This document shows positions 5,309-10,652 of a stretch of DNA of 10,768 bases, in pieces. This DNA comes from Gemmatimonadota bacterium (GTDB lineage: Bacteria > GCA-2686955), in NCBI GenBank assembly GCA_002686955.1, contig NYZA01000178.1, positions 1 to 10,768 on the forward strand, in the 5' to 3' direction. Made by a program: the position numbers and the translations under genes. The first letter of the stretch is position 1; every line of letters begins with the position of its first letter. The notes under the pieces were generated by a model. It was not told the DNA's origin. It worked only from the letters and a program-made list of their open reading frames with translations, and made no database searches.

Positions 5309-5929
5309 TCAAACCGGTCGATCGTTGGGGTCCAGGATCGTCCGAACGAAACGGGCAACCTCGGCGCGAAGATCTCGGCGGGATCCGGAGTTGTCGATCA
5401 CATGCTGCGCTCTGGTGACCTTCTCTTGCAGAAGGATTTGCGCCGCGATGCGTGCCTCTACCTCTGCTTCGGTGAAACCGCGCCCCTTCACGAGCCGGCG
5501 AATTCGAAGCTCACGAGGGCAGTCCACCACCACGATTCTAGGGTAGTCGCCTTCACGCCCCGATTCGAAAAGAAGCGGAATGTCGAGAACGATGATCTCG
5601 TGCTTCCCCGATGCCATGAGCGCATTCAGGTGCGCCGCCATCCGCTGTCCTACATAGGGATGAATGATCGATTCCAGGGCGTGTTTCGCGCCGGGATCAG
5701 CGAATACGATCTCCGCCACACGCTCGCGATCGAGCGATCCGTCCTCTTGCAACGCCTTCTCCCCCAGAATCGCCACCGCCCGCGCCAGCCCGTCGGTACC
5801 GGGGGCCACGGCCTCTCTCGCCAGCTTATCCGCGTCGATCACCGCGCAACCCAAAGCGCGCAGCTCCTCGCAGGCCGTGCTCTTGCCGCTACCGAACCCG
5901 CCCGTGAGAGCTACGACCTCCGCACTCAT
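5309..5929 (-). CDS. coaE: Dephospho-CoA kinase
   Basis: This 206-residue P-loop kinase phosphorylates the 3'-hydroxyl of the ribose in dephospho-CoA, the last step of coenzyme A synthesis. The Walker A motif is GGFGSGKST (10-18), followed by VIDADKLAREAV around 31-41 with the D-x-D pair of the family. IIHPYV (88-93) and LDIPLLFES (115-123) are further CoaE signatures, and the length is typical. The start is the ATG at 5929, which overlaps the polA stop as ATGA and has GGAGG seven bases upstream. An in-frame TTG at 5947 would add six residues and has no such support. prfB follows after 49 bp. polA-coaE coupling by a 4-bp overlap implies co-translation from one message. Confidence 0.95.
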   Translation of the reverse strand: MSAEVVALTGGFGSGKSTACEELRALGCAVIDADKLAREAVAPGTDGLARAVAILGEKALQEDGSLDRERVAEIVFADPGAKHALESIIHPYVGQRMAAHLNALMASGKHEIIVLDIPLLFESGREGDYPRIVVVDCPRELRIRRLVKGRGFTEAEVEARIAAQILLQEKVTRAQHVIDNSGSRRDLRAEVARFVRTILDPNDRPV

Positions 5930-8607
5930 CCGTGCGCCTCCAACCAATTTCCCCCCACTCCGGTGTCGACCTCGAGCGGTACATCGATCTCGAACGCTCC
6001 GACCATCTCGTCACGCACGATGCGAACCAAAGGCTCCATCTCCTCTTCCGCGGCATCGAAGACCAACTCGTCATGCACCTGCAAGGTCATCACACTTTGA
6101 AGCGATTCGTCGCGCAATCGCCGGTCGATCCGGATCATCGACACTTTGATCAGGTCGGCGGCCGACCCTTGGATCGCGGTGTTCACCGCGGCCCGTTCGG
6201 CGAATTCACGAATCTGTCGGTTCCTGTCGTTCAACTCCGGGAGATAGCGACGGCGTTTGAGCATGGTCGTGACGTATCCCTCTTTTCGGGTTCGAGAAAC
6301 GGTCTCGTCCACGAACTCGCGAATCCTGGGGAAGCTGCGGAAATACGCATCTATGAACTCCGCCGCATCCTCGATCGAGATATCCAATCGACTGGAAAGG
6401 CCGAAGGCTCCCATCCCGTAGATGATGCCAAAGTTCACGGTCTTGGCGCGACGCCGGAGCGCTCCGTCCACCGCATCGGGCTCGACACCGAAGATCCTCG
6501 CCGCGGTGGCGCGATGCACGTCCTCACCGCCGGCGAACGCCTGCTTCAGGTGTTCGTCCCCCGAGAGGTGGGCGAGGATCCGAAGCTCTATCTGAGAGTA
6601 GTCTGCGGTCAGCAGAACCCGCCCCGGTCCTCGGGCCACGAAGGCCTCGCGGATCTTCCGGCCCTCGTCGGTTCGAATCGGGATGTTTTGCAGATTCGGA
6701 TCGGAGGAGGAAAGACGCCCGGTGGCGGCAACGGTCTGGTGAAAGCTGGTGTGAATCCTGCCCGTGCGCGGATTGACCAGCCGCGGGAGCGCATCGACAT
6801 AGGTCGATCGGAGCTTCACGAGCTCGCGGTTTTCGAGAATCAGCCGGGGGACCTCGTGCTCGTTGGCCAAAACCGCGAGAACGCTCGCGTCGGTCGAATA
6901 GCCGGTCTTGGTCTTCTTCGTCGGCTTCAGGCCGATCTTGTCGAAGAGGATGTGCTGAAGCTGCTTGGGCGAGTTCACATTGAAGCTCTCGCCGGCGGCT
7001 TCGTGAATCTGTTTCTCTAGAGCGATCGAACGCTCACCGAGCTCCCGCGAGAGAGCTTTCAACCTCTCGACCGCGATCGCCACGCCCTCGGCCTCCATCC
7101 GGGCGAGCACGGGGATCAGGGGGATCTCGACCTCCCGAAAAAGGGGCGCGAGCTCCTTCTCGTCGAGCTGAGGCAAGAAGATGTCACGGAGTCTGTGAGT
7201 GACGACCGCGTCTTCGGCGGCATATTCAGCTGCTTTGCCCACAGCCACTTCGTCCATCGTCATCTGGCCGCCGCGGCGCTCCCCGATCAGCGACGAGATC
7301 GGAATCATGCGGTGGCCGAGATGGCGCATGGCGAGAAAGTCCAGTCCGTGTTGGCGGGAGCTTGCGTCGAGCAGATACGAGGCGATCATCGTGTCGCAGT
7401 CGATCCCTCGGATCGGCAGATCGGCGCGCTCCAGCAGATGCAAGTCGTACTTGATGTTCTGACCACATTTGCCGATCGCCGGATCGGCGAGGACCGGCCC
7501 CAGAACTTCTCGAATCGTCGCCGGATCGGCGCTCGGCCCCTCGCGATGCCCCACGGGAATGTAGATGCCTCTCGCGCCGTCGACGGAGAGGGAGATGCCA
7601 ACCAGCTCGGCGCGAGTCGGATCGATGTCGGTCGTTTCGGTGTCGAGGGTCACCGATCCCGCTGCTCGAATCTCGTTGGCCACAGCCTCGAGAGCCGGTC
7701 GATCCGTAGCGATTTCGAAAAGGAGCTCCATCCCCTCCACCTCGAGGCCGATCCGTTCCATCAAGCTGTGTGACTCGAGCCCGACCACGAGCTCCCGGAG
7801 TCGATCCTCGTCCCGTCCGCCGATCCGCACCGCTTCGAGATCTAGATCGACCGGCGCGTCTCGATCGATGACGACCAGCTCCAAGGAGAGTCGCGCGAGA
7901 TCCGCATGTGTCGCCAACTTCTCCCCAAGCCTGCCCTTGATCTCGGGCGCGTGCTTCAAAACCGACGCCACATCGCCGTACGTCCGAACGAGCTTGATCG
8001 CCGTCTTCATTCCGACGCCGGGAACGCCCGGTACGTTGTCGGCTGAATCGCCCGCCAGCGCGAGCACGTCCACGACATGCTCCGGAGGAACTCCGAAGCG
8101 CTCCTCTACTTTGACGCTGTCGAACACGACCCCCGGCTCACCCGATCTGGGTGGAGTGAGCACGGAGGTGCGTGGCGTGACGAGCTGGTAGAAGTCTTTG
8201 TCGCTCGTAACGAGAAAAACGTCGAGTCCGGCACTCTCTCCTTGACGGGCAAGGCTGCCCATGAGGTCGTCCGCTTCGTACCCCTCCTTTTCGAGAATCG
8301 GCACCCCCATGGCGAGCACCATCTCGCGCATCTGCTCCAGCTGCGCTCGCATCTCGTCGGGCATCTTCGCGCGCGTGCCTTTGTACTCGGGGAAGATCTC
8401 GTGCCGAAAGGTCTTGCCTTTGTCGAGAACGAAGGCCAGGTGATCCGGCCGGTGCTTCTCGAGGAGATCGAGCACACCGTGGGTCACGCCGTAAACGGCG
8501 CTGATGTTCTGACCCTTGGCGTTCGTAAGCGGCTGCCTGATGAACGCGTAGTAGGCACGATAGGCGAGGGCGTATCCATCGATCAGGTAGAGCGTCGGGC
8601 GGGGCAT
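5926..8607 (-). CDS. polA: DNA polymerase I with 5' nuclease, 3'-5' exonuclease and polymerase domains
   Basis: This 893-residue polymerase serves Okazaki fragment processing and repair synthesis. The 5' nuclease domain (1 to ~290) has LIDGYALAYRAYYAF, YEADDLMG (110-117), TSDKDF (134-139) and GDSADNVPGVPGVG (186-199). The proofreading domain appears active: DTE (322-324), NIKYD with D388, and YAAED with Y462 and D466 match the DEDDy set. The polymerase domain has motif A LTADYSQIELR (D669), the O-helix with K722, F726 and Y730 (RRRAKTVNFGIIYG), and motif C QVHDE (D846, E847). Phe at the O-helix discriminator position is as in E. coli. The ATG at 8607 is chosen because homology begins there (MPRPTLYLIDG) and GGAG lies 5 nt upstream. 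The open frame reaches back to 8700 through the preceding terminator, which is not credible. It is the first gene of the housekeeping run. Confidence 0.97.
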   Translation of the reverse strand: MPRPTLYLIDGYALAYRAYYAFIRQPLTNAKGQNISAVYGVTHGVLDLLEKHRPDHLAFVLDKGKTFRHEIFPEYKGTRAKMPDEMRAQLEQMREMVLAMGVPILEKEGYEADDLMGSLARQGESAGLDVFLVTSDKDFYQLVTPRTSVLTPPRSGEPGVVFDSVKVEERFGVPPEHVVDVLALAGDSADNVPGVPGVGMKTAIKLVRTYGDVASVLKHAPEIKGRLGEKLATHADLARLSLELVVIDRDAPVDLDLEAVRIGGRDEDRLRELVVGLESHSLMERIGLEVEGMELLFEIATDRPALEAVANEIRAAGSVTLDTETTDIDPTRAELVGISLSVDGARGIYIPVGHREGPSADPATIREVLGPVLADPAIGKCGQNIKYDLHLLERADLPIRGIDCDTMIASYLLDASSRQHGLDFLAMRHLGHRMIPISSLIGERRGGQMTMDEVAVGKAAEYAAEDAVVTHRLRDIFLPQLDEKELAPLFREVEIPLIPVLARMEAEGVAIAVERLKALSRELGERSIALEKQIHEAAGESFNVNSPKQLQHILFDKIGLKPTKKTKTGYSTDASVLAVLANEHEVPRLILENRELVKLRSTYVDALPRLVNPRTGRIHTSFHQTVAATGRLSSSDPNLQNIPIRTDEGRKIREAFVARGPGRVLLTADYSQIELRILAHLSGDEHLKQAFAGGEDVHRATAARIFGVEPDAVDGALRRRAKTVNFGIIYGMGAFGLSSRLDISIEDAAEFIDAYFRSFPRIREFVDETVSRTRKEGYVTTMLKRRRYLPELNDRNRQIREFAERAAVNTAIQGSAADLIKVSMIRIDRRLRDESLQSVMTLQVHDELVFDAAEEEMEPLVRIVRDEMVGAFEIDVPLEVDTGVGGNWLEAHG
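5937..5941 (-). promoter_or_regulatory. coaE ribosome binding site GGAGG inside the polA end
   Basis: GGAGG lies seven bases before the coaE ATG at 5929, within the last codons of polA. It fixes the coaE start and shows that coaE can recruit ribosomes itself despite the ATGA overlap. Confidence 0.75.
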
Positions 8608-8665: not shown

Positions 8666-8709
8666 AAAAACCCCCCCGGCCGGGAGCCCGTTGCTCCCAA
8701 CCGGGGGGG
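8664..8709 (-). terminator. Strong intrinsic terminator after the secreted repeat protein
   Basis: On the minus strand a hairpin begins with nine bases CCCCCCCGG (8709..8701) pairing perfectly with CCGGGGGGG (8679..8671). A 2x2 internal mismatch follows, then GGGAGC paired with GCTCCC, closing a 5-base loop (8692..8688). Seven T residues follow directly (8670..8664). It lies 18 bp after the stop at 8728 and separates the repeat-protein gene from polA. Confidence 0.92.
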
Positions 8710-8727: not shown

Positions 8728-9699
8728 TCAACCGTCGCTGGCGTTGGATGAGGTGCGCCGCCCACGGCGGCGGGTGTTCGCGCGGTTCTTGCGCTTCTTC
8801 ACGTGATCGTCGCGGTTCCGCCAGGCCTTTCGGGCCTCTTCGGGATTCTGCTTCGCCTTGTCGTAGCCCTTCTTCGATTTCTCCGGGTTGTCCCAGGCCT
8901 TCTTGGTGGCGCCGGGGTGCTTCGCGGCATCTTTGGTGACGGCCTTGCCGGCGCGAGGGTTCTTGGACGCCGCGTCGATCGCCTTCTTCGAGCGCGCCTC
9001 GTTCCGCCAGGCCGCCTCTACCTGGTTCGGGTGGGTGTCGGCATAGTTGTTGACCCTCTTGGAATACTCGGGGAAGCGCTCCCCGTGCTCCAGGATGTAG
9101 CGGGTCTTGGCCTCGGAGTTCCAAACGTCGTCGCGCCATTCCGGATGGTGCTTCAGCAGCTCCGCCTCTTCGCGGGCCAACGCCGGATTCCGCTTCGCAT
9201 GGTCCACGAAGTACCCGGTCTTGCGCTTGTCGCCCAAGAGAGCGCGGAACTGCTCGGGATGCCGCTCCAGATCGCGTACGACCGCGCGGGTTTGTTCCGG
9301 ATTCCGCTCGTAGTAGTGGCCGACCTTTTTGGTCATACCCGGGTTCTGGTACATCAACTTCACCGCGTCCGGGCGATCGTTGAAGTAGCGGATCGCTTCC
9401 TGGGTTCGTGCCGGGTACTTGGAGAGAGCCGCGTTCCCCTCGCGGAAATAGCCGGGGTTGTTGTTCAGCTTCTCGATGACGTCGGGGCGAGCGGCGAGCT
9501 CCAATGCGTGCTCCCGCGTCTCCGCCGGCCACTTGTTCAGAGCTTGAATGTAGCGCTCGCGTGCGATCGCCGAGTCGGAGAGCTTCATGTCGTCCGGGTT
9601 GGCGGAGTCGGCCGCCCAGGCGCCGGTGGACAGGGCCAGCAGGCTGCCGCATATGAGCAAGATCCGGCTCGTCTCATGCATGAATCTGATCGGTCTCAT
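8728..9699 (-). CDS. Secreted 38-residue tandem-repeat protein with a basic C-terminal tail, function unknown
   Basis: I do not recognise this 323-residue protein. The N-terminus is a Sec signal peptide (basic n-region, hydrophobic RILLICGSLLALSTGAWA, likely cleavage after A29 before ADSAN). C17 follows Ile and is not in a proper lipobox, so a lipoprotein is unlikely. From P58 to N285 there are exactly six 38-residue repeats without an insertion or deletion. Prolines mark each repeat at +0 (58, 96, 134, 172, 210, 248), +14 (72, 110, 148, 186, 224, 262) and, in repeats 1, 2 and 6, +24 (82, 120, 272). Between prolines the segments look helical and rich in Arg, Lys and Glu, so an alpha-solenoid is likely. 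Another partial unit begins at P286, followed by a strongly basic tail (KKRKNR, RRRGRR; 301-315). The ATG at 9699 is supported by GGAGA upstream and by the signal peptide; an ATG at 9774 would bury the signal peptide internally. A strong terminator follows. Location in periplasm or outside the cell is inferred. Confidence 0.85.
   Translation of the reverse strand: MRPIRFMHETSRILLICGSLLALSTGAWAADSANPDDMKLSDSAIARERYIQALNKWPAETREHALELAARPDVIEKLNNNPGYFREGNAALSKYPARTQEAIRYFNDRPDAVKLMYQNPGMTKKVGHYYERNPEQTRAVVRDLERHPEQFRALLGDKRKTGYFVDHAKRNPALAREEAELLKHHPEWRDDVWNSEAKTRYILEHGERFPEYSKRVNNYADTHPNQVEAAWRNEARSKKAIDAASKNPRAGKAVTKDAAKHPGATKKAWDNPEKSKKGYDKAKQNPEEARKAWRNRDDHVKKRKNRANTRRRGRRTSSNASDG
8845..9528 (-). 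repeat. Coding tandem array: six units of 114 bp (38 residues)
   Basis: The array covers residues 58-285 of the secreted protein. Each 38-residue unit divides at prolines into 14 + 10 + 14 residues. The sub-units resemble one another, for example PEQTRAVV (134-141) and PEQFRALL (148-155), so the unit probably arose from an older repeat of about 13 residues. Units 3-5 have replaced the third proline (positions 158, 196 and 234). The dipeptide HP opens sub-unit 2 in units 3-6, and RP in units 1-2. AW(R/D)N recurs at 230-233, 268-271 and 292-295. Units are diverged in sequence but identical in length. Confidence 0.9.
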
Positions 9700-9929: not shown

Positions 9930-10652
9930 TCAAGCCTCCACCGGCCGCCGGAAACGATAGCCGATCCCGTGAACGGTCTCGATCACCTCGGATTCCCCGA
10001 GTGCGGCCCGGAGCTTCTTTCGCACGCGGGTGACGTGGGTATCGACAGTCCGGTCGATCCCAACGAAGTCCATACCCCAAACGGCATTGAGCAGCTCTTG
10101 GCGGCTGAACACGCGACCTGGCCGCTGCGCCAGATGCACGAGCAGGTCGAACTCCTTGCCGGTCATCGAGAGCTCACCGCCGCCGTGGACGACGATCCGC
10201 TGATCGAGATCGATGTCGGTCCCTTCGCCCAGGGGGATGATTCGGTATGCCGCTTTGGTGACTCGCGCGCGGCGAAGCAGAGCCCGCACTCTTGCCCGAA
10301 ACTCTCTGGCTCCAAAGGGCTTGGTGAGGTAGTCGTCCGCGCCCACTTCGAGCCCGAGAACCACGTCGACCTCCTCGGCCAACGCCGTCAACATCAGGAT
10401 CAGATCTCGCTGCCCCCGTTCCTCTCGCAGGCGCCGGCAGACATCGAGTCCGCTCAGGCCGGGGAGCATGAGATCGAGCACGATGAGCTCGGGCTCCTGC
10501 TCTTGAACCACATCGAGAGCCTCCGCGCCGGTCTCGCACTCGATCACTTGGCATCCCGATGCCTCTAGATTCATGCGAATGATCGAACGAACCTGCGGCT
10601 CATCTTCGACGACGAGCACGAGCGGCCGCCCTGCTTCATGGCTTTCTTTCAA
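9930..10652 (-). CDS. OmpR/PhoB-family response regulator
   Basis: This 240-residue two-component regulator has an N-terminal receiver domain (about 10-125). Its acidic pair is E16/D17, the phospho-acceptor D60 (LIVLDLMLPGLSG), the switch T89 and the conserved K111 (YLTKPF). A winged-helix DNA-binding domain (about 137-236) follows, with recognition helix DRTVDTHVTRVRKKL (200-214) and the wing ETVHGIGYRFRRP. It would bind DNA when phosphorylated by a histidine kinase. The start is TTG at 10652: GAGGG lies 5 nt upstream, and no in-frame ATG precedes the receiver domain. No kinase follows; the next gene on the strand is the secreted repeat protein 230 bp on. The kinase may lie upstream beyond the window or elsewhere. 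Targets cannot be told from sequence, and the specific PhoB/CreB/other assignment is left open. Confidence 0.93.
   Translation of the reverse strand: MKESHEAGRPLVLVVEDEPQVRSIIRMNLEASGCQVIECETGAEALDVVQEQEPELIVLDLMLPGLSGLDVCRRLREERGQRDLILMLTALAEEVDVVLGLEVGADDYLTKPFGAREFRARVRALLRRARVTKAAYRIIPLGEGTDIDLDQRIVVHGGGELSMTGKEFDLLVHLAQRPGRVFSRQELLNAVWGMDFVGIDRTVDTHVTRVRKKLRAALGESEVIETVHGIGYRFRRPVEA

Follow-up and report, generated by a model that had tools for sequence, protein, structure and literature searches.

A candidate new family of exported helical tandem-repeat proteins with a 38-residue unit in a Gemmatimonadota bacterium

The closest described systems to the protein reported here are helical tandem-repeat proteins and exported helical proteins of the bacterial envelope. 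TPR, PPR and Sel1-like proteins repeat helical units of roughly 31-44 residues in tandem, with two helices in each. The ARM repeat, of 42 residues, has three helices (PMC11514114), a short H1 followed by H2 and H3 packed antiparallel. Among envelope proteins, the chaperones Spy and CpxP are exported, all-helical and co-regulated with envelope stress genes, and they form, together with the DegP protease, a textbook case of joint targets of Cpx envelope-stress regulation (PMC6737893). A DUF3106 (PF11304) helical region, encoded next to one of the relatives described below, is also exported and has short proline-opened helices.

In this report, we describe a protein of 323 residues encoded in a stretch of 10,768 nucleotides (the window) from a 4.28 Mb draft genome of a Gemmatimonadota bacterium, a phylum represented by two genomes in the collection searched. 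It is best read as founding a rare new family of exported helical tandem-repeat proteins. Its features are listed in Table 1. The start codon ATG is preceded by GGAGAAG, a Shine-Dalgarno-like sequence, and the Sec signal peptide proposed by the initial annotation is recognizable by eye (MRPIRFMHETSRILLICGSLLALSTGAWA, followed by ADS). All five family members combine such a signal sequence, again judged by eye, with a basic C-terminus, and the N-terminus is hydrophobic in every relative. The last 50 residues carry a net charge of +13 in the window protein and of +9 to +17 in four relatives. By eye, neither a surface anchor nor a sorting signal or lipobox could be seen.

Table 1. Features of the repeat gene and its neighbours in the window
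Feature	Coordinates	Strand	Basis
38-residue repeat protein gene, 323 aa, exported	8728..9699	-	open reading frame
Sec-type signal sequence, residues 1-29 (AWA/AD), no lipobox	9613..9699	-	translation read by eye
Unit 1, residues 56-93, KWPAETREHALELAARPDVIEKLNNNPGYFREGNAALS	9421..9534	-	periodicity, unit alignment
Unit 2, residues 94-131	9307..9420	-	periodicity, unit alignment
Unit 3, residues 132-169	9193..9306	-	periodicity, unit alignment
Unit 4, residues 170-207, RNPALAREEAELLKHHPEWRDDVWNSEAKTRYILEHGE, best conserved	9079..9192	-	family alignment
Unit 5, residues 208-245	8965..9078	-	periodicity, unit alignment
Unit 6, residues 246-283	8851..8964	-	periodicity, unit alignment
Partial seventh unit (P286) and polybasic tail KKRKNRANTRRRGRRTSS	8731..8850	-	charge count
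OmpR/PhoB-type response regulator (Response_reg + Trans_reg_C), upstream neighbour	9930-10652	-	domain match
Intrinsic terminator-like hairpin, 17 bp stem then T7	8671..8709	-	consensus match only
polA (DNA polymerase I), downstream neighbour, beyond terminator	5926..8607	-	gene order shared with sister genome

Prolines recur in 38-residue steps at positions 58, 96, 134, 172, 210, 248 and 286. A second series lies 14 residues further on in all six units (72, 110, 148, 186, 224 and 262) and a third, at +24, is present in units 1, 2 and 6 only (82, 120 and 272); these positions agree exactly with the ladder first read from the sequence. An equally spaced proline ladder of 7 steps was observed, against a maximum of 5 in 2000 shuffles (steps of 10-60). 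Likewise, self-similarity (BLOSUM62) stands out at lag 38 (z = 14; score 0.99, whereas 500 shuffles reached at best -0.09 at any lag), with echoes at lags 76 and 114 and also at 14 and 24. Pairwise identity between the units of the window protein amounts to 5-14 of 38 residues.

The sister genome (G001), the other of the two from this phylum, whose contigs match the public MAG JALXCG01 labelled 'Gemmatimonadetes bacterium', encodes an ortholog (L002/L005) that is 61% identical to the window protein, and two paralogs, L003 and L004 (57% and 36%), which bring the number of copies to three. The order response regulator, repeat gene, polA is identical in the window and at the ortholog's locus (L005). 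The paralogs lie elsewhere in unrelated surroundings, with no response regulator adjacent. L004 (L004:1386-2132 / L007:3798-4547) has its own arginine-rich tail and lies downstream of two genes named by eye, one for an RpoD-like sigma factor and the other DUF2064-like. Comparison of the window gene with its ortholog (NG86) gives dN 0.33 and dS 1.6; the resulting dN/dS of about 0.2, a rough ratio since dS is near saturation, argues that the gene is retained by purifying selection. The initial annotation held that the units had diverged strongly while their length remained unchanged, which is true of the window protein, the ortholog and L003 but not of L004. In this paralog the 38-residue step is kept for prolines 108, 146 and 184, and about 6 residues are gone between units 1 and 2 (prolines 38 and 108 are 70 residues apart, vs 76 for two full units), so that unit length is not absolute across the family.

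Two AlphaFold runs (4 and 5 sequences) agreed in predicting three short helices per unit, at residues 59-69, 72-80 and 84-92 in unit 1 and 97-107, 110-118 and 120-132 in unit 2. Over residues 41-155, pLDDT values lie mostly at 70-94 (block means mostly 76-94 over 41-150); they fall from about residue 158 and stay under about 50 through most of 227-300, with pTM values of 0.39-0.45. Because the alignment is 4-5 sequences deep, the low values have no bearing on order or disorder. The models support a unit of three helices (A-B-C), predicted with confidence throughout units 1 and 2 and over much the greater part of unit 3. Structure prediction, which had been recommended as a check on a presumed regular solenoid, therefore bears out helices that fall on the units over residues 41-155, but not a superhelix over the full length, the C-terminal half being of low confidence. 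Searching the PDB for similar folds with both models, confident only for 41-155, gave no Foldseek match at E <= 0.001, and the best VIA-align match (Z 4.2, 73 residues, rmsd 3.1), obtained with a partly low-confidence model, lies below the tool's informative level. Given such models, the lack of a PDB fold match is not taken as a sign of a new fold.

Sequence searches of Pfam, NCBIfam, PHROGs and the PDB assigned the window protein to no family, in line with the initial impression that no TPR, PPR or other familiar repeat signature was present. The Pfam families of TPR, PPR, HEAT, ARM, Sel1, PUF and ANK repeats gave no match to the window protein (E up to 10), to four aligned members (E up to 1) or to the distant relative P0001 described below (E up to 0.1), and the profile search built from the aligned units, another of the proposed checks, returned no PDB sequence match. 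Hits to the BID T4SS effector domain (E 0.0055, 16.7 bits vs a cut-off of 45), to DUF535 (E 0.0068) and to phrog_1241 (E 5.5e-4, confined to the G184 protein and covering 31 of its residues) were discarded as noise. Our literature search, with most subscription journals outside its scope, yielded no paper on such a 38-residue repeat and none naming DUF3106. The likeness to ARM repeats is one of architecture, with three helices, predicted ones in the present case, in units of about 40 residues; the unit here has 38 residues rather than 42, helix-opening prolines and predicted helix lengths of about 12, 8 and 12. TPR, PPR and Sel1-like repeats differ in having two helices per unit and other signatures.

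A family profile of four sequences detected one distant relative in 386 genomes, P0001 in a genome of another small phylum (G184), with an E value of 1.7e-17 obtained before P0001 entered the profile. This protein of 160 residues carries a signal sequence and has a basic end; between them lie two perfect 38-residue units. Its unit prolines (P39, 53, 77, 91 and 101) show the same 14+24 spacing as those of the window protein, and the core NPALAxE...KxHPxWR...W is common to P0001 and the window family. The six window units and the two G184 units align without gaps over 38 columns, P3 and P17 being invariant, and a unit profile recovers both G184 units, which were themselves part of that profile. 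Conservation over five members is best in unit 4 and its flanks (F164, P172-A175, E177, K183, HP 185-186, WR 188-189, W193, P210, A220, HP 223-224 and W231); the motif of unit 4 is the one that the window protein and P0001 have in common. Beyond its two units, P0001 continues in 10-residue HP steps at 125, 135 and 145 (L010:1804-1866; KHPGMAKWVK/NHPAKAGWIK/NHPVAAKKVI), in which the middle segment of the unit may have multiplied independently.

The family was found in 3 of 666 genomes (G000-G665) by profile searches covering small and large phyla, and a scan of 84,980 species by short peptide patterns retrieved the sister genome only. No unit-bearing genes beyond those already known were detected in G000, G001 and G184 (next best E 0.028). 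Origin from a mobile element or phage was considered and rejected, with no match in plasmids (one chance match, E 0.01), phages or IMG/VR.

In G184, the repeat gene belongs to a same-strand run (contig 67, L014:4519-12399) that opens with genes for an ECF sigma factor and a zf-HC2 anti-sigma factor. The zf-HC2 gene is followed by two small exported-looking proteins, a FecR+DUF3106 protein and the repeat protein, past which are a LiaF-like protein (under the Pfam cut-off), a protein resembling a small outer-membrane barrel by eye and, last, a PDZ-containing protease of the HtrA/DegP type. LTEEQ and LSPVQQ stretches can be seen by eye in the first of the small exported-looking proteins, which has no Pfam match; the neighbour at L014:5984 gave no Pfam match to Spy/CpxP (LTXXQ). 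The FecR+DUF3106 neighbour (L014:6989-8383) contains a FecR domain and three DUF3106 stretches, with short helices opened by LPPE/LPPW, and represents a separate kind of proline-opened helical repeat: DUF3106 (L010:15-1220, in the adjacent gene) has other unit lengths, and profile comparison lends no support to kinship with the 38-residue repeat (hhalign probability 0.1%). The run is an apparent envelope-stress cluster, and its genes for the sigma factor, anti-sigma factor, FecR/DUF3106 protein, LiaF-like protein and HtrA suggest a role in envelope stress. This cluster is a single instance, beside a distant relative that matches only part of the window protein, and no stress genes flank the window copy.

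The window copy has other company. The nearby response regulator mentioned in the initial annotation lies on the same strand, 230 nt upstream of the repeat gene (249 nt in the sister genome), and the gene pair is conserved in the sister genome. A pattern scan found no terminator in the gap between the two genes and confirmed the one ascribed to the repeat gene itself. Neither in the window nor at L005 does a histidine kinase gene adjoin the response regulator. The neighbouring polA is probably without functional link to the repeat gene; past it, all on the minus strand, are coaE, prfB, lysS, genes for a MacB/FtsX-like (LolC/E-type) permease and an ABC ATPase, and a UVR-motif gene.

The export signal, the predicted helices, the basic tail and the stress genes accompanying the distant relative together lead us to propose a periplasmic stress factor. 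That the rare helical-repeat family acts like Spy or CpxP in the envelope-stress response is the most likely role, held tentatively and at somewhat less than an even chance. The comparison with Spy and CpxP concerns the way of working only: the repeat protein has no LTXXQ Pfam match, consists of tandem 38-residue units, differs in length and is not a member of that family. The fuller proposal is rather doubtful as a whole: an undescribed class of exported solenoid, in which every 38 residues form three proline-capped helices, would act in little-studied phyla as an extended periplasmic chaperone or scaffold tied to envelope-stress regulation. Each unit would form three short helices (about 12 + 8 + 12), with a proline (in NP or HP) as the usual N-cap. 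Once the protein is exported through Sec and its signal sequence removed, its units would stack over the full length into an elongated helical array residing, we infer, in the periplasm, where the polybasic C-terminus might tether it to anionic surfaces of the envelope such as LPS phosphates, peptidoglycan or nucleic acid. Produced on envelope damage, the protein could then cradle misfolded or exposed envelope proteins in the manner of a chaperone, and might feed back on the neighbouring response-regulator system.

Other readings of the same evidence have to be weighed. The protein could be a structural or adhesive helical rod, on or shed from the cell, in which the repeats are a spacer or binding surface rather than a chaperone and the tail binds matrix nucleic acid or polysaccharide. 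The Sec signal and the basic tail of all members would suit such a rod, as would the expansion to three copies in G001 together with the shortened L004 and the short G184 form, a pattern common among binding or spacer repeats; we nevertheless consider it unlikely, since anchoring or sorting signals were not apparent by eye, conservation peaks in the middle of the protein (unit 4) and not in the tail, and the G184 relative adjoins stress genes. Alternatively, regulator and repeat gene might form one operon, the repeat protein being a periplasmic ligand or inhibitor of the sensor of the OmpR-type regulator. Their same-strand order in two genomes and the lack of a terminator in the gap by pattern scan are compatible with this role, which appears improbable with no kinase gene adjacent and no regulator beside paralogs L003 and L004; two related genomes, moreover, are weak evidence for a functional link. 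The shared order could also stem from a chromosomal segment that both related genomes inherited from a common ancestor, a point that also bears on the periplasmic stress factor.

A further alternative concerns the fold and is compatible with any of these functions: the units may derive from a known class of helical repeats (HEAT/ARM-like, Sel1-like or PUF-like) and have diverged past sequence detection. ARM geometry, with its three helices in 42 residues (PMC11514114), is similar in kind. Such descent seems improbable too, as neither the four aligned relatives nor the G184 protein matched in Pfam, the unit profile and the partly low-confidence models found no significant PDB counterpart, and no ARM, Sel1, TPR or PPR signature was seen.

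It is uncommon to meet a new regular helical repeat unit, and units that differ at 60-85% of their positions while keeping a constant length are useful for solenoid design rules. The phyla concerned have seen almost no experimental work. If the stress link is true, an extended repeat protein would join the mostly small periplasmic stress factors of the Spy/CpxP type.
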